Source: Opitutales bacterium
GTDB lineage: Bacteria; Verrucomicrobiota; Verrucomicrobiia; Opitutales; Oceanipulchritudinaceae
DNA length: 35,217 nt
Assembly: GCA_020831485.1 (NCBI GenBank)
Contig: JAFIGG010000134.1
Location: forward strand, 1-35,217
Direction: 5' to 3'
The notes under the pieces are model-generated. The model saw only the letters and a program-made list of their open reading frames with translations, had not been told where the DNA came from and ran no database searches. Below, one piece after another: positions 1,724 to 35,133 of this stretch. Each line of letters opens with the position of its first letter. The stretch's first letter is position 1. Position numbers and translations under genes: made by a program.

Positions 1724-3121
1724 TTAGGAATGGCAGTAATGGCCTAAATAGAGGGTGATCTTGATTACCGATGCAGTCGGATCCGGCAGAACATCCGGCA
1801 CGTTGATGTAGACGGTGCCTTGATTTGATGTCATTTTCAATTCCTCACCGGTGGCCAACAGGATGGCTTTTGATTGAGAGGAGAACCCATCGGGTTGCGG
1901 AATATTAAGCCAACCATCAGGCCACACGGGGCGCTCAAATACAATAGCATAAAGGGCGTCTTCGGTGGCGGTATAGCGACCGTTCCAGTCCGGTTGCTTG
2001 AAGGGGCTGGCTTGGGTGCCATAAATGGCTTCGCCGTTTACTTTCAGCCACTCCCCGATGACTTGAAGGCGCTCAATTGAGGGACGCGGAATATAGCCTT
2101 CAGGAGTTGGACCTACGTTGAGCAGATAGTTGCCGCCCTTGGAAACGATATCGACAAGGTTGCGGATCAGTTCCTCGGAAGATTTCCAGTTGGTGTCATT
2201 GGATTTCCATCCCCAGCTATCATTCATCGTCATGCAGGACTCCCAGTCGACGCCTTCAAGACCCGTGTCAGGAATTTCCTGTTCCGGGGTTCCATAATCA
2301 CCGGCAAACTCACCCTCACGGTTAATCCCAGCCATTCCCTGGCGGCCTTTGTCGACCCGGTTATTGACAATAATTTCAGGTTGCAGGGATCGGATATAGG
2401 CATCGATCTCCTTGCCCATTTCCGTCGTATAGTCTGCAACCCACTCGCCATCAAACCAGAGTATGCCGATATCGCCATACTCGGTGAGAAGCTCCCTCAA
2501 CTGCGGTTTCATTTTACTGTCAATATAGCGCCGGAAATTCGGATTACTGAGAGTGCGACTATTATACGATGGATAAAACGCCGCCTGGGCGTCCGGATGA
2601 TGCCAATCCATTATCGAGTAATAGATGCCCAGGCGTATTTCATGCCTGCGACAGGCCTCGGCCAGCTCTTTAAGGAGATCCCGACCGTAGGGTGAAGCAT
2701 TCATGATATCCCAATCACTTACCTTGGAATCCCATAACGCAAAGCCGTCGTGGTGCTTGGCAGTTATGACAATATACTTCATTCCGGCATTTTTTGCGAT
2801 ACGGACCCATTCATCCGCATCGAAGAACTTCGGATTGAACAGCTCTGCGTAGCCTTCGTATTCTTCCACAGGGATGGCGGCAGATTGCATGATCCATTCG
2901 CCGATACCGGGAATCTGGGCTCCCTTGTAAGTTCCAGCCAATTCGGAATAGACACCCCAGTGAATGAACATTCCAAACCTCGCTTCCTTGAACCAGGCCA
3001 TACGCTGGGTTCGTTCCTCAGGGCTCTCCTTCCAGGTCAAGCCTTCCGCGAATGCCAACAAAGGGCTACTAAAGAAAGCTAACATAATAATCAAAACGGG
3101 AATGCGTGAAGGGTATTTCAT
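1724..3121 (-). CDS. Alpha-L-fucosidase, GH29, secreted
   Basis: A 465-residue GH29 exo-enzyme that should release terminal L-fucose by a retaining mechanism. After a signal peptide (cleavage near AFA/EG, about residue 26) comes the family hallmark 'RMAWFKEARFGMFIHWGVYS', then AKHHDGFALWDS, and the nucleophile region GILWFDGEW, whose Asp is residue 224. The RNLVDIVSKGGNYLLNVGP segment marks the end of the TIM barrel, and a short C-terminal beta domain follows. Length and motif order are typical. It sits between an esterase (187 bp upstream) and a sulfatase (47 bp downstream) on the same strand, which suggests action on sulfated and possibly acetylated fucans. The acid/base residue cannot be placed with confidence. 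Family assignment is firm; the physiological substrate is inferred. Confidence 0.95.
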   Translation of the reverse strand: MKYPSRIPVLIIMLAFFSSPLLAFAEGLTWKESPEERTQRMAWFKEARFGMFIHWGVYSELAGTYKGAQIPGIGEWIMQSAAIPVEEYEGYAELFNPKFFDADEWVRIAKNAGMKYIVITAKHHDGFALWDSKVSDWDIMNASPYGRDLLKELAEACRRHEIRLGIYYSIMDWHHPDAQAAFYPSYNSRTLSNPNFRRYIDSKMKPQLRELLTEYGDIGILWFDGEWVADYTTEMGKEIDAYIRSLQPEIIVNNRVDKGRQGMAGINREGEFAGDYGTPEQEIPDTGLEGVDWESCMTMNDSWGWKSNDTNWKSSEELIRNLVDIVSKGGNYLLNVGPTPEGYIPRPSIERLQVIGEWLKVNGEAIYGTQASPFKQPDWNGRYTATEDALYAIVFERPVWPDGWLNIPQPDGFSSQSKAILLATGEELKMTSNQGTVYINVPDVLPDPTASVIKITLYLGHYCHS

Positions 3122-17385: not shown

Positions 17386-18180
17386 GGCATCCAGGTGCTA
17401 AAGGAGGTAACCTCAAAAAAATATGTAAGCCCGGAGCACAAACGACGAGCAGTCTCCATGGTCCTTGAAAAGGGGCTGTGCTCACTGTGTCGGGCTTGTC
17501 GGTATCTCGACTTGAGTCGGTCGAGTTTCTTTTACTAGGCAAAGCAGCGCGAGGATTACGAACGCTTATCAACCCAAGCGCAAGCGGCCTCGGCTGGGCG
17601 AATCGACCCAGGCAAAGGCACCGGTGGCGCTTGAGCCCAACGATGTCTGGAGCTGGGACTTCATCTTCGATACGACTGAGCAGGGCAAAAGCATCAAGAT
17701 TCTGAGCATTGTAGACGAAGCTACACGGTTCAATATTGCGCTGCGTGTAAGCACGCAGATGTCATCGGATCAAGTCTTGGACATCATCATGGACGAGGTC
17801 TGCGAAAGCTATGGCGTGCCCAAGTGCGTTCGCAGCGACAATGGGCCTGTTCCGAGGAGCCTTGCGACGACAACAGCGCAGCGTTCATTCGCCTCAAAGT
17901 CGATCCAGAAGTGGGTCGAAGACCGCGAGGTGAAAACCTTGTATATAGAGCCGGGATCTCCCTGGAAGAACAGCTATGTGGAAAGCTTCCACAGCCGGTT
18001 CCGAAACAATTACCTAAACCGGGAATGGTTCATTAACGAACTGGATGCAAAGGCGATCATAGCCGACTGGCGGGAACACCGAAAATCGGATTAGTGCAAC
18101 CCAGTTAACGAAAGGCGACCCCACAGCGGCATTGACTACCTGTCACCAGCTGAAGTCTACTTCAACCGGATACCCGGTTC
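17386..18180 (+). pseudogene. Decayed IS3-family transposase (OrfB, DDE integrase core)
   Basis: The remnant has three recognisable pieces. An N-terminal part in frame 1 (17386-17537) reads VLKEVTSKKYVSPEHKRRAV and CRACRYLDLSRSSFFY, then a stop. The catalytic core is in frame 2 from about 17545, with KRKRPRLGES, WSWDFIFD (first Asp), VRSDNGP (second Asp) and YVESFHSRFRNNYLNREWF (Glu). After an in-frame TAG at 18092-18094, the same frame continues with NERRPHSGIDYLSPAEVYFN, the normal OrfB ending. The 'HPRYGYRRI' region between the first two pieces is missing, and about ten extra codons interrupt the sequence after NGP. It is therefore inactive. OrfA and clear terminal inverted repeats were not found. 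The sequence TTAGAGTGGTTAAGCGCTGG near 18267 may be part of the right end. Confidence 0.88.
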
Positions 18181-25616: not shown

Positions 25617-26657
25617 TTATTGAAAACCTTCACCGGAACCATCCTTAATCAAGCGAGGATCCACCAACACGACACTGAGAGGCTCGCTGGGATTCCGGCA
25701 GCGCCATAACAACAGATCAAGAGCGCGATCACCGATCGTATCCAAATTGAGATCAATCTCAGCAGGGCGCGGATCCATCCCCGCCAGATACGGCACCTCA
25801 TAATTGCAGGAAATCATCATAAAATCCTTACCCGCTTCGAGCGATCTGCGTCGCATACAGGGGTAAACAGCCGTCGCCATGAGGTCGGTCGGACAAAACA
25901 ACCCAAACGGCCTGCGCGCACGCGCAGACACCTTCTCTAATAAATCTGAAATGGCCGCATAATTGGGCTCAACCCGATTTCGACTCGAGAGAATCAGATT
26001 TTTACCTTGCTCAATGATTGCCTCAGCACCAGCACGCTCAGCCGCATTCCGAAACGCCCTCGCTCTCATGCGTTGAGCGCGGTGAACCGAATCGCAGATA
26101 CATGCAAAATCCTTTAACCCCAACGAATTCAAATATTCAAAGGCTTTAAAGCCTATTCGATCATTGTTCACACTCACAATATCCATATCAGCACAGTAAT
26201 CACCCAGCACTCCGACCTTGGGCAAGTGGCCCAGAGTGGAATACAACTCGGGCACCATTTCGTGCCGAACCACAATGACTCCATCGCCGCCATCTGACAA
26301 AACATCCGGCGGAACCTTGCCACCCGGCGGAACCCTGCACAAAACCATTGTCACCCCTTTCCTATAAGCAGCGTTGTTGATCGCAGTGATAAGATTGCTG
26401 TAGAGCGGGATTTGGAAATCGGGCAAGGTGCAGTTTCCGAATATCAAAGTAAACCGCTGCAATGCCTGATCCCCTACAGACTTAACACGCCTCCGACCCG
26501 GCCGGCGATCCAACGGGCGAGGCTTATAATTGGCTGCCTCCATTGCACGATTTACCTTCATCACCGTCGACGCAGATGCCTTGGGCTTCCCGTTAATCAC
26601 ATTGGAAACGGTTGCAACCGATACGCCGGCCAACTTCGCAACTTCTTCAATAGTCAT
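25617..26657 (-). CDS. LacI-family transcriptional regulator
   Basis: A 346-residue regulator whose helix-turn-helix starts at the very N-terminus: 'MTIEEVAKLAGVSVATVSNV', then INGKPKASASTVMKVNRAME as hinge. The sensor domain shows GDGVIVVRHEM, IVSVNNDRIGFKAFEYL, GLFCPTDLMATAVYPCM and MMISCNYEVPYLAGMDPRPAEI, close in layout to the LacI protein at 19407 (ISCNNERPYL). It is divergent from the GH141-like gene at 26845 across 187 bp, a classical arrangement for local control. Those 187 bp contain no clear copy of the CCTGAAAAC motif, so its operator is not identified. The ligand is unknown; fucose or a fuco-oligosaccharide would fit the neighbours. Confidence 0.93.
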   Translation of the reverse strand: MTIEEVAKLAGVSVATVSNVINGKPKASASTVMKVNRAMEAANYKPRPLDRRPGRRRVKSVGDQALQRFTLIFGNCTLPDFQIPLYSNLITAINNAAYRKGVTMVLCRVPPGGKVPPDVLSDGGDGVIVVRHEMVPELYSTLGHLPKVGVLGDYCADMDIVSVNNDRIGFKAFEYLNSLGLKDFACICDSVHRAQRMRARAFRNAAERAGAEAIIEQGKNLILSSRNRVEPNYAAISDLLEKVSARARRPFGLFCPTDLMATAVYPCMRRRSLEAGKDFMMISCNYEVPYLAGMDPRPAEIDLNLDTIGDRALDLLLWRCRNPSEPLSVVLVDPRLIKDGSGEGFQ

Positions 26658-26844: not shown

Positions 26845-29193
26845 ATGCGCATACTATCTTTTATTTTACTCTCATGGATGTTGCTTGGCTTCGAGGCTGA
26901 AGCAAGTAGCGATATCATCAAGTCCGCGCATGAGACTTCCGACGCATCCAAAACTTTTTATGTATCATTGGACGGATGCGACTCCAACCCCGGCAACATT
27001 GATCACCCCTTCGCCACCATTCAACGTGCACGCAACGCTGTGCAAGCCCTGACCGCAAATGGCACGACAGTTCCGGACGGGGGGGTGGTCGTCTACGTGC
27101 GCGGCGGTCGCTATCCAGTGACAGAAACCCTCGAATTCGGCAGCAATGATTCTGGGGCACCAGGTGCGCCTATACGCTACCGAGCGAAACCTGGTGAAAA
27201 TGTAATTTTTGACGGCGGAGTAGAGATTTGCGCCAGCCGCTTTGGCAAGGTGGAAGACCCCTTGATCCTCGAGCGGATTGTGGACAAAGCCGCACGCCCG
27301 CACATTCGCGTGGCAGACCTTACGGATGTCTCATTAGGTGACGGAGAGCTGCTCGGTCCACGCGGATTTCGACGCGCATATCGAACTGCACCTGTTGAAC
27401 TGATTGCCGATGGTAAACCGCAAATTCTGGCCCGGTGGCCCAACCCACAGGATCCAGTTGTAAAACTCGACGGTGTGAAAGATGCAGGCAGTCAGCCTCG
27501 AGATGGTGACTTTGCACTCAAGCCAGCAACCATTCAATTCCAGACCGACCGACCACTGCACTGGGCTCAAGCTGATCGGCTTCATATATCCGGGATCTTC
27601 GCTCGAGAGTGGGCGGACGACACATTGCCGATTGATGAGATAGACCCAGACAACCGGACAATGACCACCAAATTGCCCCATCTGTATGGCGTTGAGATGC
27701 GTGACTTCAGCAGCTGGCACGCAGTCGATTTGTTAGAAGAAATCGATATGCCGGGAGAATACTTTATCGATTACCGAAACAAGAAACTATACTGGTATCC
27801 CGACGAACTGGGACCCGATACAATTGTTCAGCTCTCCCTGTTGCGGGGGGTCATGGTCGCGATCGAAGATACCTCACATTTCTCACTGGAGGGTTTCGTG
27901 TTTGAAAACAGCCGTGGCTCTGGGATCTATATTGAAGGCGGCGACTCGGTGCAAATCATTGGCTGCACCCTCAGAAATCTTGGCAAATTGGGTATACAAA
28001 TCGGTCGAGGCATAACGCCGCTGCCAGAGGGTCTACACGATGCGCATGGCGTCCTTGCCGAAGGATTGCCTGAGCCAAAGACCATTCGTCGGTCGCTGGG
28101 AAGCTGGCATGAATATGTATACCGCTATCCGGCATACTATTTTCACGGTGGGCGCAACCACTTGATTCAAAGCTGCGACATTCATAATACCGGAGCTGGC
28201 GGAATTCACATTACTGGCGGTGACCGGAAAACCCTTAAGCCCGCAAACCACCGAGTGGATAATTGCAACATTTTCCGAGTGACCCGATGGGACAGAACCT
28301 ACAAGGCGAATATCAATGTGGACGGCGTCGGCATAACAATCGCCAACAACCATCTACACCAATCCGACGGGCAAGCCATCTACCTGAGAGGAAACGACCA
28401 CAGGATCGTTCGCAACCGCATAAACGACGTTTGCCGTGACATTTCCGACATGGGGGCGATCTATATCGGTCGTGATCCTTCAGAACTCGGCCACCTGATC
28501 AAAAACAACTTTTTCCATGATATTCAGGACCCGCACGATGGAGCTGGAGCTGGGGTTCAAGCCATCTTTTTTGACGACGGAACACTGTATGCGGCAACCG
28601 TGTATGGCAATCTCTTCTACCGGGCAGGGAGCACAGGCGTGATCAAATATAACCTGGGCGGAGGCAGTTCCGTCGCTAACAACATTGCCATTGAATGCCC
28701 TCCGCTAGTCATAAGGTCACAGGCGACACGAATGGACCGTGCAATTGAAATGATGCGCCTCCCACCAGATGAAAACCCTTCTCCTCACAATGCCGTACAG
28801 CACCTGCGCACCCACGTGGAATCAGCAGATGATCCAAGTGGAGTGCATGTTGGGATGGAACCTTACCGCAGCGCCTATCCCTTTCTCTACACAACCTGGA
28901 AATACGGCAAAGACCTCTCCCCAGAACCTTGGAATAATTTCGAAACCGACAACCCGAAACTATTCGCAAATCCTGAAGACAAAGACTTTCGCCTACTGGC
29001 TAACGCATGCGACTTACTCCCTCGTTCCAGCGACGTCGTTGACCTTATCCAAGGTATCCAAAACGTCGATAAACGGTTTGATCAAATCCCCTTTGAATCC
29101 ATTGGCCTTTATCCTGATGGGCACCGACATTACATAGGAAAAGACCTCCACCAGGCGACCAAACATTTAATCGCTGAACCAAATCAACAATAA
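26845..29193 (+). CDS. Secreted right-handed beta-helix glycosidase, GH141-like (first of tandem pair)
   Basis: A 782-residue exported protein: signal peptide MRILSFILLSWMLLGFEAEA, then 'FYVSLDGCDSNPGNIDHPFA' and TIQRARNAVQ. An N-terminal insert includes ARWPNPQDP and GIFAREWADD, 'VDLLEEIDMPGEYFI' precedes LYWYPDE, and a pectate-lyase-like parallel beta helix runs from about 340 onward (FSLEGFVFENSRGSGIYIEG, NHRIVRNRINDVCRDISD). Candidate catalytic Asp residues are D535 (DMGAIYIGRD) and D577/D578 (FFDDGT). This architecture fits GH141, which contains an alpha-L-fucosidase and a xylanase. It is followed after 10 bp by a second family member and then a sulfatase. A TTGACC at 26767 may be a -35 element but no good -10 follows. 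Fold certain, family likely, activity inferred. Confidence 0.85.
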   Translation: MRILSFILLSWMLLGFEAEASSDIIKSAHETSDASKTFYVSLDGCDSNPGNIDHPFATIQRARNAVQALTANGTTVPDGGVVVYVRGGRYPVTETLEFGSNDSGAPGAPIRYRAKPGENVIFDGGVEICASRFGKVEDPLILERIVDKAARPHIRVADLTDVSLGDGELLGPRGFRRAYRTAPVELIADGKPQILARWPNPQDPVVKLDGVKDAGSQPRDGDFALKPATIQFQTDRPLHWAQADRLHISGIFAREWADDTLPIDEIDPDNRTMTTKLPHLYGVEMRDFSSWHAVDLLEEIDMPGEYFIDYRNKKLYWYPDELGPDTIVQLSLLRGVMVAIEDTSHFSLEGFVFENSRGSGIYIEGGDSVQIIGCTLRNLGKLGIQIGRGITPLPEGLHDAHGVLAEGLPEPKTIRRSLGSWHEYVYRYPAYYFHGGRNHLIQSCDIHNTGAGGIHITGGDRKTLKPANHRVDNCNIFRVTRWDRTYKANINVDGVGITIANNHLHQSDGQAIYLRGNDHRIVRNRINDVCRDISDMGAIYIGRDPSELGHLIKNNFFHDIQDPHDGAGAGVQAIFFDDGTLYAATVYGNLFYRAGSTGVIKYNLGGGSSVANNIAIECPPLVIRSQATRMDRAIEMMRLPPDENPSPHNAVQHLRTHVESADDPSGVHVGMEPYRSAYPFLYTTWKYGKDLSPEPWNNFETDNPKLFANPEDKDFRLLANACDLLPRSSDVVDLIQGIQNVDKRFDQIPFESIGLYPDGHRHYIGKDLHQATKHLIAEPNQQ

Positions 29194-29203
29194 GCCATAA
29201 ACA

Positions 29204-31306
29204 ATGAAAGCACATAGAATCCTTCCCTTTCTTTTAATCGGATTTGCCATTAATTACACACACGCGGCCGTTGAAAAACATACCATTCATGTATCCACTA
29301 AAGGTGAGGACACTTCCGACGGCAGCATTCAAAGCCCTCTAAGGTCGATCGAGGCAGCTCAGCGTCTGGCACAACAATTACGGAACCAACAATCAGAGCA
29401 AGCTATAGTAATCGAACTTGCGCCAGGGGTCTATGAACTCGACACAACCCTAAAATTTTCTGAAAATGACTCGGGCCTCCCTTCCCATCCTTTAACAATT
29501 CAGGGTGCTAATCATGGAAGGAATGGCGAGCCGCAAGTCGTCGTTTCAGGAGGTAGGACCATATATGGCTTCCAACCAGTCAAAGACCCACAGATCCTTC
29601 AGCGACTACCAGAGGAAGCGCATGGCAAAGTTCTCTCCGTCAATTTGAAAGAACAGGGCATCACAGACTTAGGAAAGCTGCATCGAAGAGGTTTTGCCCT
29701 CAGTGGAAGCGGCTCACTCAAACTGTATTACGGGGGTGAACCGATGCCTATGGCAAGGTGGCCTAACACCGGTTGGGCAGTGACAACCTTGCTGTTTGGA
29801 GACCCATCCGAAGTTGGGTATGATCGAAGCATTGGGGTGAATGTCACATCGGAAAGGTTGCGTCGCTGGGCCCAAGCAGAAGAAGTATGGGCACACGGTT
29901 ATTGGTATCACGGTTGGGCAGATGAGCATGCGCCAATTGAATCTATCGACCCGGAAGCAAAGAGTATAACTTTTAGCCAAAGGCATCGCTATGGATACAA
30001 TGATGACCGACACTTCTACGTTTACAATCTGATTGAAGAATTGGATCAACCCGGCGAATGGTATCTCAATCCGCAAACAGGAGATCTCTATTTTTGGCCG
30101 CCAGAATCCGTCTCCCCAGAAATGGTGTCCTGTGTGGTAACGGTATTGGATAGCCCACTGCTGCAATTTGACAACACAAGTCATATACGTATCCGCAATA
30201 TCGCTTTTCGTTACGGCAGGTCACACGCCATTCTGGTTCGAGACGGCCGAGACATTGAAATTGACCAATGCAGCTTATCCAACTTTGACCGAACAGCCAT
30301 CTCCATCCAAGACGGATACGGTCACAAAGTGCTGCAGTCCCACCTGTTCAATCTGAATGAATCCGCAATTCGAATGCAAGGCGGCGATCGCCTACAGTTG
30401 CTACCGGGCAACCACAAGGCCTCCGACAACCACATCCACGATTACGCACTGTGGACAAGAACCTATCGCGGCGCCATTGAAATGGTTGGCGTTGGGATCG
30501 AGGCCTCCCACAACCTCATCCACGATGCACCACATGTGGCCATTCGCTTCTCTGGAAACAATCACACTATCCGAAATAATGAGATATTCCGGGTTGTTAC
30601 AGAAAGTGACGATGCTGGAGCGATCTATGCGGGTCGCGACTGGAGCGCTCGAGGCACGCGAATTGAAGACAATTTCATTTATATGTCTGGAATCACATTC
30701 AGGGAACACCATGCACCAGAAAACCACATGCCGGTATCCAGACATTTTCACAGCAGCGCGCTTATCTATCTGGACGATTTATTGTCGGGAATTGTAATCC
30801 AGGGCAATATTCTCCAAGGTGTTGATGCCACGATCAAGGTAGGGGGTGGCCGCGATAATCTCGTAAATAAAAACGTAATTGTCGGTGGCGAGCGTGGAGT
30901 ACGTCTGGATGCCAGAGGGCTCGCTTGGGCGAACCCTCATGTCGTCCCCGGTGGACGATTTCGGATGTGGGAAAGACTCGAAGAAGTTAATTTCAACGAA
31001 CCTCCATACAGCGAAGCCTATCCCGAACTGGTAACATTGCCAGACAATCAACCATACGCGCCGATCGGAAACAAAATCCAAGACAATTTTTTTATCGGGG
31101 TGGAGCATCCCCTCTATTTTCTGCACGGCGCAGATGAGTATGTCACAAAATCGGGTAACCGTCCATTTACAGTGCATGGGGAAAATCCTGCCACATTTGG
31201 TCGCGAAGAAATCGAAGCTCTGATTTCATCTAAACAAGCCGATGAAGATCTACCAATAGACGTTGATTTCACACGATTTGGTCCGCGCAAATCAACCGGA
31301 AAATGA
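29204..31306 (+). CDS. Secreted right-handed beta-helix glycosidase, GH141-like (second of tandem pair)
   Basis: A 700-residue exported relative of the preceding gene. It has a signal peptide (LPFLLIGFAINYTHAAV), IHVSTKGEDTSDGSIQSPLR, ARWPNTGWAV, GYWYHGWADE, NLIEELDQPGEWYLNPQTG and LYFWPPE, then a beta helix with IRIRNIAFRYGRSHAILVRD and NHTIRNNEIF. Candidate catalytic Asp residues are D470 (DAGAIYAGRD) and D524/D525 (YLDDLLSG). In the YLDD region it is closer to the minus-strand protein at 10829 (YLDDALSG, GNILQG) than to its tandem neighbour (FFDDGT), so the pair is probably not a recent duplication. It begins 10 bp after the previous stop and overlaps the next ATG by 4 bp (ATGA), so translation is coupled to the sulfatase. 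Confidence 0.85.
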   Translation: MKAHRILPFLLIGFAINYTHAAVEKHTIHVSTKGEDTSDGSIQSPLRSIEAAQRLAQQLRNQQSEQAIVIELAPGVYELDTTLKFSENDSGLPSHPLTIQGANHGRNGEPQVVVSGGRTIYGFQPVKDPQILQRLPEEAHGKVLSVNLKEQGITDLGKLHRRGFALSGSGSLKLYYGGEPMPMARWPNTGWAVTTLLFGDPSEVGYDRSIGVNVTSERLRRWAQAEEVWAHGYWYHGWADEHAPIESIDPEAKSITFSQRHRYGYNDDRHFYVYNLIEELDQPGEWYLNPQTGDLYFWPPESVSPEMVSCVVTVLDSPLLQFDNTSHIRIRNIAFRYGRSHAILVRDGRDIEIDQCSLSNFDRTAISIQDGYGHKVLQSHLFNLNESAIRMQGGDRLQLLPGNHKASDNHIHDYALWTRTYRGAIEMVGVGIEASHNLIHDAPHVAIRFSGNNHTIRNNEIFRVVTESDDAGAIYAGRDWSARGTRIEDNFIYMSGITFREHHAPENHMPVSRHFHSSALIYLDDLLSGIVIQGNILQGVDATIKVGGGRDNLVNKNVIVGGERGVRLDARGLAWANPHVVPGGRFRMWERLEEVNFNEPPYSEAYPELVTLPDNQPYAPIGNKIQDNFFIGVEHPLYFLHGADEYVTKSGNRPFTVHGENPATFGREEIEALISSKQADEDLPIDVDFTRFGPRKSTGK

Positions 31307-32595
31307 AGAAACCCAACATCCTTTTTATTATTAGCGATGACCATCGTGCCGACACGATGGGGTTTAAAAATCTACCAGGAGCGCAAACACCGAACCTGGA
31401 TTGGCTCGCAGAACGAGGCTGCTCTTTCGATGCATGTTATCACATGGGAGCTCAGCATGAAGCTGTTTGCGCGCCTTCCAGGGCTGCACTTCACACCGGA
31501 AATAATCCTCGGCGCGCCATGGCCAATTGCGACTTCGAGATCAACAAAGACATGGTTACACTTGGCCAGAATTTCAGAAGTAATGGGTATAATACTTTCG
31601 CCGTTGGAAAATGGCATAATGACCCTGAATCCCTGAACCGCTCATTTCAGGACGGTGCATCACTTTTTCTGGACGGAATGGATGATCATTTTCTAACCCC
31701 ACTGCAAGCGTACTCTCTCGAAGGAGACTACAATATATCACGCACTACTCGTCAAAACAGACACTCATCAGATATTTTCGCTGATTCTTCCGTTGAATTT
31801 ATTCAGAACCAGGAAAATTCAGAAATTCCCTGGTTTTTATATGTAGCATTCACTGCTCCACATGATCCACGTACACCACCAGAAAATTACGGCCGTGACC
31901 GCTACATAAACAAGGTAGAGCTACCTGAAAACACACTCCCCTGTCATCCCTGGCGTATTGGTGATGATCGTATTCGTGACGAACTACTTGCCGGGTTCCC
32001 GAGAAGCCCAACTGAGCTAACAGAACACTGGGCCGATTACCTCGGCATGGTAGAGCATATGGATGCGTGCATCGGTCGGATTTTAACTGCGCTTCGACAA
32101 CTGCCTGGAGGGATTGAAAACACTATCATCGTCTACACAAGCGATCACGGGCTTGGGCTTGGGTCTCATGGGCTGATGGGTAAACAGAACCTCTATGAAC
32201 ACAGCGTAAAAGTGCCTTGCCTACTGAGCGGTCCGGGCGTACCCGAGAAAGTGAGAAGCAGCAGTTTCATCCACACTCCCGACCTTTTCCCGACGCTCTG
32301 TGCTCTATCAGATATAGAAATCCCTGACTCTGTTCGAGAGGCTCAAGACCTCTCTCCGATACTCGAAAACCCTAATCACGACGTTCGAGCTTTCGTTCGA
32401 TGTTTTTACAAAAACTACTCCAACATGATTCGCAAAGAACACTGGAAACTCATCCAATCCCGTAACGAATCAGAAGAAATCCACGAACAACTATTTAACC
32501 TGCAACAAGACCCTTCAGAGATGCACGATGAAAGTCAGAATCCGAATTTTCAGGAGCTGACAAATGAACTAAGGCAATTGATTACAGTTCAATAA
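31303..32595 (+). CDS. Sulfatase, type I formylglycine-dependent, no signal peptide
   Basis: A 430-residue S1 sulfatase that starts directly with [20 protein letters not shown], so D12/D13 are the metal ligands and there is no export signal. Its active-site signature is CAPSR with Cys56 as the formylglycine residue ([14 protein letters not shown]). The late segment [23 protein letters not shown] matches the sulfatase at 189-1676 closely, so both belong to the same or sister subfamilies. The ATG overlaps the stop of the GH141-like gene (ATGA), which fixes the start. A cytoplasmic location implies desulfation of imported mono- or oligosaccharide, or use of an unrecognised export route. All catalytic segments look intact. 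Confidence 0.93.
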
Positions 32596-32639: not shown

Positions 32640-33186
32640 ATGAGTCTATCCGTACGCCACACCCTCTATGCCATCGTTGCCAGTTGCATGCTAATTTCCG
32701 TAGTATTTTCCGCGGAAAAGAAGCCCAACATTGTCCTCATCTACGCGGACGATCTCGGCTACGGCGATCTCAAATCCTACAATCCGAATTCGAAGATCCC
32801 GACCCCCCATTTTAATCAGCTCGCTGAGGAGGGCTTGCGTTTCACCGACGGAAAATCCAGTGCTGGTCCCTACGGGGACTTCGTCTTCGAGACGGACGAC
32901 GTTTGCGGCCGCCTGATCACCGCACTCAAAGAGAGCGGGCAAAATGAAAACACCATCATTCTCTTCACAGCGGATAATGGAGCGGAGGCCTATGCTTACG
33001 CACGCGATGAAAAAACGCAATGTTCCCGCATACAGCGGTCTCGAAGTGGGTCTATACAACCTCGCGGAAGACATCGGTCAGCGCTATAATCTAGCGGAGC
33101 GGCATCCTGAAAAAGTCCGTAACCTGCAAACCCTACTCCATGAGATTCGTAACAACCCACACACCGCGCCCCGACTTAGCCAATGA
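32640..33186 (+). pseudogene. Sulfatase relic with internal deletions
   Basis: The start is a normal secreted sulfatase: signal peptide ([19 protein letters not shown]), [18 protein letters not shown] and [18 protein letters not shown]. Where CxPxR should follow, the frame jumps to [20 protein letters not shown] and [20 protein letters not shown], which belongs to the second half of the fold. The frame then shifts, and the third piece, [20 protein letters not shown] with LQTLLHEIRNNP (about 33007-33186), is the usual sulfatase C-terminus. About 500 bp remain of an expected 1400 or more, and the catalytic Cys is gone, so it is inactive. It differs from the two intact sulfatases, being closer to the arylsulfatase-A-like group. 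It lies 44 bp after the intact sulfatase and its end overlaps the first copy of a direct repeat. Confidence 0.85.
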
Positions 33187-33240
33187 TCTGGACTCACCTC
33201 AATCCGGCCAGCAGACGGTCACGACAAAACCCAAAGGCAT
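33178..33240. repeat. Direct repeat, copy 1 (63 bp), upstream of the FucP-like gene
   Basis: Starting AGCCAATGATCTG and ending AACCCAAAGGCAT, this matches 35072-35133 with one indel and about three substitutions, in the same orientation. It begins at the very end of the sulfatase relic. The two copies bracket the permease gene. It may be an insertion-sequence end or the footprint of a recombination event. Confidence 0.85.
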
Positions 33241-33510: not shown

Positions 33511-34920
33511 ATGCAACGATCTCCTGATTCCAAATCCCCTGCCCTAAAAAGCGACCCCGTAGTTCCGAGCCAATATATCTATCCGTTTATACTGGTCACA
33601 AGCCTCTTCGCGCTTTGGGGCTTTGCAAACGATATAACCAATCCGCTGGTGCGTGCATTCCGGGAAATTTTCCTGATCAGCAACGCGCAGAGCAGTTTGG
33701 TGCAGATGGCATTTTACGGAGGCTATGCGACTATGGCAATTCCAGCAGCCCTGGTAATCCGCAAGGTCTCGTTTAAATCCGGCATAATGGTCGGACTCAT
33801 CCTATACGCCATCGGCGCTCTACTAACCATTCCAGCTGCCGGCAGGATGGACTTCAATATCTTTCTCATCGGGTTTTACATTCTGACTTTTGGTTTAGCT
33901 TTTCTCGAAACCAGCGCAAATCCCTACATTCTATCCATGGGTCCCCGCTCCACGGCGACCCGACGCCTTAACCTCGCCCAGGCATTTAACCCAATCGGAT
34001 CTCTTTCCGGCATGCTGGTGGCCAGCATGTTCATCCTTCCGGCCTTGCACGTAGCCGAGTTTCGGGAGGCGGAGATGCTTGCCAACCCTGAGTATGCGGA
34101 GATGCTACCCAGCGAGGTTGACGCTTTGATTACTGAATCACTGGAAACACTTGCCACAACAGAACAGGAAACGCATCAGGCGATGGTTGCTCATGACCTC
34201 AACGTTGTAAAGGTTCCTTACGTAATCATCGCAATCATTGTCATGGCCGTGCTGCTTTTATTCGCAGTGTCCAAAATGCCTGATACGGGAAGGGAAGAGG
34301 AAAAGATTAAACTAGTGCAGCTCGTTCGGAATCTTTTCATGAATTTCCATTATACAGGCGGTGTTGTCGCACAGGCATTCTATGTAGGTGCGCAGATCAT
34401 GTGCTGGACTTTTATCATCCACTACGGAATGACCCTCCTGGGAATGAGCGCGGCCACCGCCCAAAACTACAACATCCTCGCGATGGTGATCTTTTTAACC
34501 AGCCGCTTTATCTGTACCTTCATTCTCAAATTCATCAATCCGGGCGTACTTTTGTCGTCACTTGCCTTCGGCGGGATTCTCCTTACTCTCGGTGCAGTTT
34601 TCATCCAGGGAATAGTCGGGCTCTACTGCCTTATTGGTGTTTCTGCCTGCATGTCGCTGATGTTCCCAACCATCTATGGCATCGCTCTTCAGGGCCTCAC
34701 CCCGAACGATGCAAAACTTGGATCAGCTGGCCTGATCTTCGCAATCGTGGGAGGAGCCATGATGCCCCGTTTACAAGCCGGCATCATTGACGGCGACGGC
34801 TGGCACATAGGCACGCTCTATCTCGAGTCCGTTCGGGTATCGTTTTTCCTGCCAGTTCTATGTTTTGTCGTCATCGCGATCTACGGTTGGTTGTCCAACA
34901 GGATTGTGCGACACGCGTAA
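33511..34920 (+). CDS. FucP-like sugar permease (MFS, fucose:H+ symporter family)
   Basis: A 469-residue inner-membrane permease of the major facilitator superfamily that would bring a monosaccharide, plausibly L-fucose, into the cytoplasm. It matches the FucP pattern: YIYPFILVTSLFALWGFAN at helix 1, 'QMAFYGGYATMAIPAALVIR' at helix 2, 'FLETSANPYILSMGP' with Glu133 at the position of the essential FucP Glu135, RRLNLAQAFNPIGSLSGM, then VGAQIMCWTFIIHY in the C-terminal half. The position of FucP Asp46 is Asn44 here, while FucP Asn43 is Asp41. Twelve membrane spans are expected. The ATG at 33511 has no good ribosome binding site, only AGGGG 16-20 bp upstream. It is flanked by the 62-63 bp direct repeats. 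Confidence 0.92.
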   Translation: MQRSPDSKSPALKSDPVVPSQYIYPFILVTSLFALWGFANDITNPLVRAFREIFLISNAQSSLVQMAFYGGYATMAIPAALVIRKVSFKSGIMVGLILYAIGALLTIPAAGRMDFNIFLIGFYILTFGLAFLETSANPYILSMGPRSTATRRLNLAQAFNPIGSLSGMLVASMFILPALHVAEFREAEMLANPEYAEMLPSEVDALITESLETLATTEQETHQAMVAHDLNVVKVPYVIIAIIVMAVLLLFAVSKMPDTGREEEKIKLVQLVRNLFMNFHYTGGVVAQAFYVGAQIMCWTFIIHYGMTLLGMSAATAQNYNILAMVIFLTSRFICTFILKFINPGVLLSSLAFGGILLTLGAVFIQGIVGLYCLIGVSACMSLMFPTIYGIALQGLTPNDAKLGSAGLIFAIVGGAMMPRLQAGIIDGDGWHIGTLYLESVRVSFFLPVLCFVVIAIYGWLSNRIVRHA

Positions 34921-35071: not shown

Positions 35072-35133
35072 AGCCAATGATCTGAGTCACCTCAATCCGG
35101 CCAGCAGACGGTGACTACAAAACCCAAAGGCAT
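35072..35133. repeat. Direct repeat, copy 2 (62 bp), downstream of the FucP-like gene
   Basis: Same orientation and nearly identical to 33178-33240. Its last base is the outer base of the stop codon of the minus-strand gene at the right edge, so the repeat is that gene's immediate 3' flank. Confidence 0.85.

Follow-up and report, generated by a model that had tools for sequence, protein, structure and literature searches.

Can a sugar permease move its proton-accepting carboxylate by one helical turn and keep its function? The question is raised by a gene in a 35,217-nucleotide stretch of an Opitutales genome (assembly GCA_020831485.1, contig JAFIGG010000134.1), hereafter the window, whose product resembles the E. 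coli L-fucose permease FucP. Published accounts of that protein describe Asp46 as the proton site accessible from outside and place Glu135 on the transfer path (PMC3824880, PMC4882079, PMC11649914), and one of them has Asp46 as the only residue reached from the outside, with Glu135 belonging to the path (PMC11649914). For FucP, apparent pK values of 6.3 (release) and 9.4 (binding) are given (PMC4882079). The original prediction held that in the window permease an Asn replaces Asp46 and an Asp replaces FucP Asn43, with the Glu135 equivalent kept at identical spacing, and that this displacement of charge could alter coupling or sugar choice.

Identity and residue assignment of the window permease

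The permease gene (33511–34920, forward strand) is a complete open reading frame of 469 codons and a stop, and its 469-aa product (P0001) was assigned to the FucP-type MFS permeases using TIGR00885, PDB entries 3o7q and 3o7p, and AlphaFold2 with Foldseek. It scores 503.8 bits against the NCBIfam model TIGR00885 (L-fucose:H+ symporter permease), above the cut-off of 280.4, and 235.6 bits against NF007524, the model for E. coli-type FucP, below the cut-off of 427. The sequence search returned only two solved relatives, the E. coli FucP structure 3o7q and that of the N162A mutant, 3o7p, which match by phmmer with an E-value of 2.6e-64. An AlphaFold2 model, made with 52 related sequences as input, has a mean pLDDT of 91.2, and Foldseek returns 3o7q as its top match (E 5.9e-19, 33% identity). 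Despite this rank, 3o7q is absent among the 50 matches listed in the VIA-align structure table, where many of the entries are inward-facing structures; 3o7q is titled outward. The permease is a TIGR00885 member that most likely functions as FucP does, yet lacks the E. coli residue taken as the proton site.

A phmmer alignment places residues 15–177 of the permease on FucP (3o7q) residues 17–179 without a gap. In TM1, Asp41 (codon 33631–33633) falls on FucP Asn43, and Asn44 (33640–33642) falls on Asp46, so that the Asp of the FucP proton path is not present at its usual position and Asp41 is the proposed relocated proton-accepting carboxylate. The second proton-path position, FucP Glu135 in TM4, is occupied by Glu133 (33907–33909), which is invariant in A1, and the distance between positions 46 and 135 is 89 residues in both proteins. 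The binding-site residue Asn162 in TM5 has its counterpart in Asn160 (33988–33990). All four codons lie on the forward strand. A shifted helix is excluded as the cause of the pattern, as there are no gaps in FucP columns 35–56, flanked by the anchors Trp38 and Phe52, among 281 distinct relatives (the proteins left after duplicate rows were removed), and the predicted TM1 is a single unbroken helix (residues 20–54). A local oddity or sequencing error is likewise ruled out, because the pattern recurs in independent genomes. The residue assignment made in the original prediction, including the spacing to Glu133 and a charge displaced by about one helical turn, is therefore upheld.

Beyond this site, the window permease shares with E. 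coli FucP its fold (35% identity over 416 aligned residues), the Glu135 and Asn162 positions, and the length and anchors of TM1. Unlike FucP, it is Asp43/Asn46 rather than Asn43/Asp46 in FucP numbering (used for all relatives below), has a longer TM5–TM6 loop, and carries Phe at the Tyr365 position, as do most Asn43/Asp46 relatives. Helical spacing, by our own reckoning, would put Asp43 one turn before position 46, on a conserved face of TM1 that the two positions share. As the N-terminus of MFS proteins is inside, it should also be nearer the cytoplasmic end of the helix than position 46.

Distribution of residue states in the family

In the window's phylum, 114 of 288 genomes have TIGR00885 matches; the counts are 78 of 148 for the phylum holding a Bacteroides genome and 73 of 349 for the phylum holding a Colwellia genome. 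The relatives come from a biased sample: the proteins from three phylum searches were drawn from higher-scoring matches, and a scan of the collection with a window-like query confirmed 581 places, the best 80 of which were used. The Asp43/Asn46 pattern occurs in 121 of the 281 distinct aligned relatives and is a subfamily trait, found mainly in Verrucomicrobiota and Bacteroidota; named carriers include Rhodopirellula, Colwellia, Mariniflexile fucanivorans, Wenyingzhuangia, Bacteroides, and Prevotella. With residues given for FucP positions 43/46/135, the 281 comprise D/N/E (121), N/D/E (44), A/D/E (7), D/T/E (3), and A/E/E (3); in the remainder, position 43 is occupied by further residues, mostly together with Asp46. 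The higher-scoring sample from the window's own phylum (68 proteins) includes 30 D/N/E and 16 N/D/E. A literature search, mostly of papers outside subscription, found no report of the 43/46 swap.

The two acids exclude one another. Among the 212 relatives with Glu135, 124 have an acid at 43 only, 77 at 46 only, 11 at neither, and none at both. Asp43 and Asn46 are each present in 115/115 members of one group, and Asn43 and Asp46 in 32/32 of the other, but these groups were chosen by their state at columns 43 and 46, and the meaningful point is that neither a D/D nor an N/N state occurs among the 212. Three distinct Asp43 members have Thr46, showing that Asn46 is not strictly needed while Asp43 is retained. 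A double-acid candidate suggested by a DNA pattern (G856, L329) was discarded, having no FucP match and no motif in open reading frames of at least 60 aa.

Asp45 is found in six of the 11 Glu135 relatives without an acid at 43 and 46, and five of the 212 (L150, L151, L153, L121, and L071) lack an acid at 43, 45, and 46. These proteins are possibly uncoupled carriers or, through Asp45, a third placement of the carboxylate. In the 69 relatives with Gln135, an acid is present at 46 in 55 and at 43 in none. Several Gln135 proteins (L123, L125, L129, L255, and others) have no acid at the TM1 site, being Trp43/Gly46 (8/281) or Trp43/Ser46 (4/281), and are candidates for uncoupled sugar carriers.

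Further columns also separate the Asp43 and Asn43/Asp46 groups, FucP A128, A276, A298, and L301 among them. Two features considered as explanations of the exchange do not track it strictly. P45, beside the old site, is invariant in the Asp43 group but is also present in 9 of the 32 Asn43/Asp46 members. With duplicates counted, a coupled pair in TM8 (FucP columns 298/301) is Gln-Asn in 108 of the 127 rows with Asp43/Asn46, and Val-Ala or Val-Gly in 14 rows.

Evolutionary history of the site

With columns 40–48 omitted, an IQ-TREE tree of 98 rows requires 4 changes of a three-state label, and a FastTree tree of 264 rows requires six changes of the same label. In the IQ-TREE tree, a single clade (SH-aLRT 99) unites the Asp43 proteins with their nearest kin; it is nested among Asp46 proteins and itself contains two lineages with Ala43/Asp46. 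L049, an Ala43/Asp46 protein from an Akkermansiaceae MAG, pairs with an Asp43 protein with a support of 99, and the Ala43/Asp46 proteins L087, L143, L120, and L321 from Bacteroidota are placed with a support of 98. Constraining all Asp43 rows to one clade is rejected (p-AU 5.5e-5); the single returns to Asp46, when AU-tested separately, are borderline (p 0.051 and 0.056, with log-likelihood losses of 48 and 58). Other state-separating columns mostly stay Asp43-like in the returned lineages, so it would be chiefly the carboxylate that moved back. As read from these trees, the swap is a feature of the subfamily, with one nested origin and later returns, and not a local event.

The Verrucomicrobiota permeases with the motif NNMTDP (L025, L026, and L031) share with the window permease their phylum, the TIGR00885 family, and Glu135, but they are Asn43/Asp46 as in E. 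coli and belong to a separate clade.

Gene neighborhoods and the transported sugar

Loci from the best 80 of the 581 places, together with 40 loci with flanks of about 8 kb, were searched; the queries were the hydrolases encoded in the window and the fuc, rha, ara, xyl, and gal enzymes of E. coli. Queries for a non-phosphorylative cluster (an amidohydrolase-type lactonase, an FAA hydrolase, and a GD_AH dehydratase) were taken from L302. We defined a fucose marker as FucI, or at least two of these three proteins, within 8 kb. In this sample, which includes the best 80 of 581, markers lie near 45 of 91 Asp43 loci (38/74 and 7/17), which leaves roughly half of this group with none in reach, and near 9/20 Asn43/Asp46 and 2/4 Ala43/Asp46 loci; the Gln135 branch, serving as the control, has them within 8 kb at 0 of 20 loci. 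Fisher values, which are guides only, the loci being related to one another, are 8e-6 for Asp43 versus control, 0.0012 for Asn43/Asp46 versus control, and 0.81 for Asp43 versus Asn43/Asp46. FucI itself lies within 8 kb of 34 of the 91 Asp43 loci and 3 of the 20 Asn43/Asp46 loci. The single Thr46 locus has no marker (0/1), and rhamnose, xylose, and arabinose isomerases were found near none of the searched loci. Left out of the counts were three loci whose transporter is absent from the deduplicated alignment and one with two transporters of different state; all four are markerless, and including them gives an Asp43 count of 45/95. The two marker-positive Ala43/Asp46 loci are L302, the source of the queries, and L087; judged from family names and general pathway knowledge, their clusters look like non-phosphorylative fucose routes.

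Because fucose markers are common to the Asp43, Asn43/Asp46, and Ala43/Asp46 loci and absent at the Gln135 branch, sugar choice seems to be unchanged by the swap. The proposal that the swap could alter the choice of sugar is thus not supported, and the neighborhood counts do not favor a change of sugar as its cause. For the window permease, the strongest indication of fucose as the substrate comes from its close relatives: among the best 80 of 581, FucI is present at three of seven loci (L070, L033, and L038) that are 71–79% identical in the best segment, and the eighth and ninth loci of this identity range leave the three FucI carriers unchanged. At L070, from an Opitutaceae genome, two Asp43 permeases on opposite strands flank FucI, and one of them is the closest relative of the window protein among the best 80 of 581 (79%). 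The window permease also has the Asp43/Asn46 motif in common with the Bacteroidota FucP of fucI-fucA-kinase-fucP clusters, such as L099 from Bacteroides congonensis, to which it is 51% identical in the best segment and whose genome has a best TIGR00885 match of 715 bits. Whereas the L099 FucP adjoins fucose genes, the contig of the window ends 297 bases past the permease stop codon, and no fucose-catabolic marker was found within 8 kb of the permease.

Genomic context of the window permease

The permease closes a forward-strand run of genes that begins with two right-handed beta-helix proteins, one at 26845–29193 (PF13229, E 5.1e-14) and one at 29204–31306 (PF13229, E 3.6e-10). The latter has a GH141-like insertion domain, with PF21231 (GH141_M) at 23.3 bits, below the cut-off of 27. 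A sulfatase follows (31303–32595, forward strand; PF00884, E 2.5e-46), and between it and the permease lies a truncated sulfatase remnant of 149 aa (32640–33089, forward strand), which matches PF00884 in two stretches and was apparently shortened internally. A LacI-type regulator (25617–26657, reverse strand; PF00356, PF13377) is divergent from this run. Elsewhere, the window encodes a GH29 alpha-L-fucosidase (1724–3121, reverse strand; PF01120, E 3.8e-103), another sulfatase, a GH2-like enzyme, a TonB-dependent receptor plug protein, and an SSF transporter. Taken by family, this gene set suits the digestion of a sulfated, fucose-bearing glycan, which has been reported for marine Verrucomicrobiota (PMC8857213). 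An integrase-core (rve) open reading frame of 156 aa (17624–18094) inside the hydrolase cluster is likely a transposase remnant.

In the window's genome assembly (96.8% complete), FucI (TIGR01089) was not found, nor was the lactonase, the latter in a search without a positive control. The genome has one FAA hydrolase (45% identity) with an adjoining SDR; these are too general to indicate a non-phosphorylative route, which was set aside with the lactonase not found. The permease gene lies between the two copies of a 50-base direct repeat (33191–33240 and 35084–35133, 94% identical) whose core is found nowhere else in the genome; the repeat could be the trace of an earlier insertion or duplication of this segment. 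A second FucP-like permease is represented in the same genome by a fragment of 68 aa (L354:3887–4090, G000 contig 84) whose TM2–3 wording resembles the Asn43/Asp46 group and which looks like a decayed paralogue.

Proposed mechanism and alternative readings

We propose, with a probability of about 0.6, that the window permease is a FucP-type protein that couples L-fucose transport to H+ and whose lone TM1 proton carboxylate sits at position 43 instead of 46, with an Asn at 46. Asp43 would do the job of Asp46, taking a proton from the outside-facing cavity and handing it to Glu133, the counterpart of FucP Glu135; L-fucose would be the sugar and H+ the driving ion, so that the TM1 carboxylate would have been relocated by one turn with L-fucose symport kept. 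From the mutual exclusion of acids at 43 and 46, and the replacement of one by the other across lineages, we argue that this patch of TM1 calls for one carboxylate and that either position may serve. The D46N substitution is reported to inactivate H+ translocation in E. coli FucP (PMC8784342), and a natural Asn46 protein would consequently have to use Asp43 or another group, or couple differently; an altered coupling, as originally suggested, is supported to the extent that it can be reasoned from this mutant. A related arrangement is described for the galactonate:H+ symporter DgoT, in which a TM1 Asp and a TM4 Glu form a pair homologous to FucP Asp46 and Glu135, although DgoT differs in its two-proton stoichiometry and its substrate (PMC11649914). 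Another fucose permease, cj0486 of Campylobacter, is reported to complement an E. coli fucP mutant (PMC6946681).

The relocated-carboxylate reading has to be weighed against the possibility that Asp43 members are not proton symporters at TM1 and work by facilitated diffusion or with Glu133 alone, Asp41 being structural or sugar-binding. Such a scheme could draw on the E. coli D46N mutant, for which fucose-specific binding currents are reported to persist with no H+ translocation (PMC8784342), on the single-site scheme on another helix described for LacY (PMC11649914), and on the five of 212 Glu135 relatives without an acid at 43, 45, and 46, which suggest that loss is tolerated. We consider it unlikely, as one shared role fits better with acids that never coexist in those 212 proteins and are swapped on the tree, and as Asp43 is retained even where Asn46 has become Thr.

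Less probable still is that the relocation accompanies a switch of coupling ion, for example to Na+. Na+-coupled members exist in the wider family, the TM1 acid is flanked by Asn and Thr, and many members of the subfamily come from marine taxa, but the same motif is found in gut Bacteroides and rumen Prevotella. A change of sugar could in turn explain why further columns, including FucP A128, A276, A298, and L301, split the groups and why about half of the Asp43 loci are without a fucose marker; the FucI genes near Asp43 and Asn43/Asp46 loci alike, and the two of four Ala43/Asp46 loci in clusters resembling a non-phosphorylative fucose route, make this improbable. Within the relocated-carboxylate reading itself, a bolder and rather doubtful version would have the carboxylate walk along its helix during evolution, with one move from 46 to 43, two or more returns to 46, and no change of sugar, the deeper site altering the timing or number of protons, or the ion, as a naturally tuned coupling.

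The window permease is ordinary as a gene and informative as a natural experiment, being a conserved natural variant. A shift of the carboxylate by one turn is what laboratory mutagenesis would try; in nature it has been made, kept across phyla, and undone. The roles of FucP residues should not be copied onto many members of TIGR00885. Among the members of the subfamily concerned are the permeases encoded in Bacteroidota fucose clusters and that of Mariniflexile fucanivorans, a fucan degrader. Since loss of the carboxylate at position 46 is reported to stop H+ translocation in FucP, this subfamily allows a direct test of whether it is the position of the proton-site carboxylate, or its mere presence, that matters for coupling.
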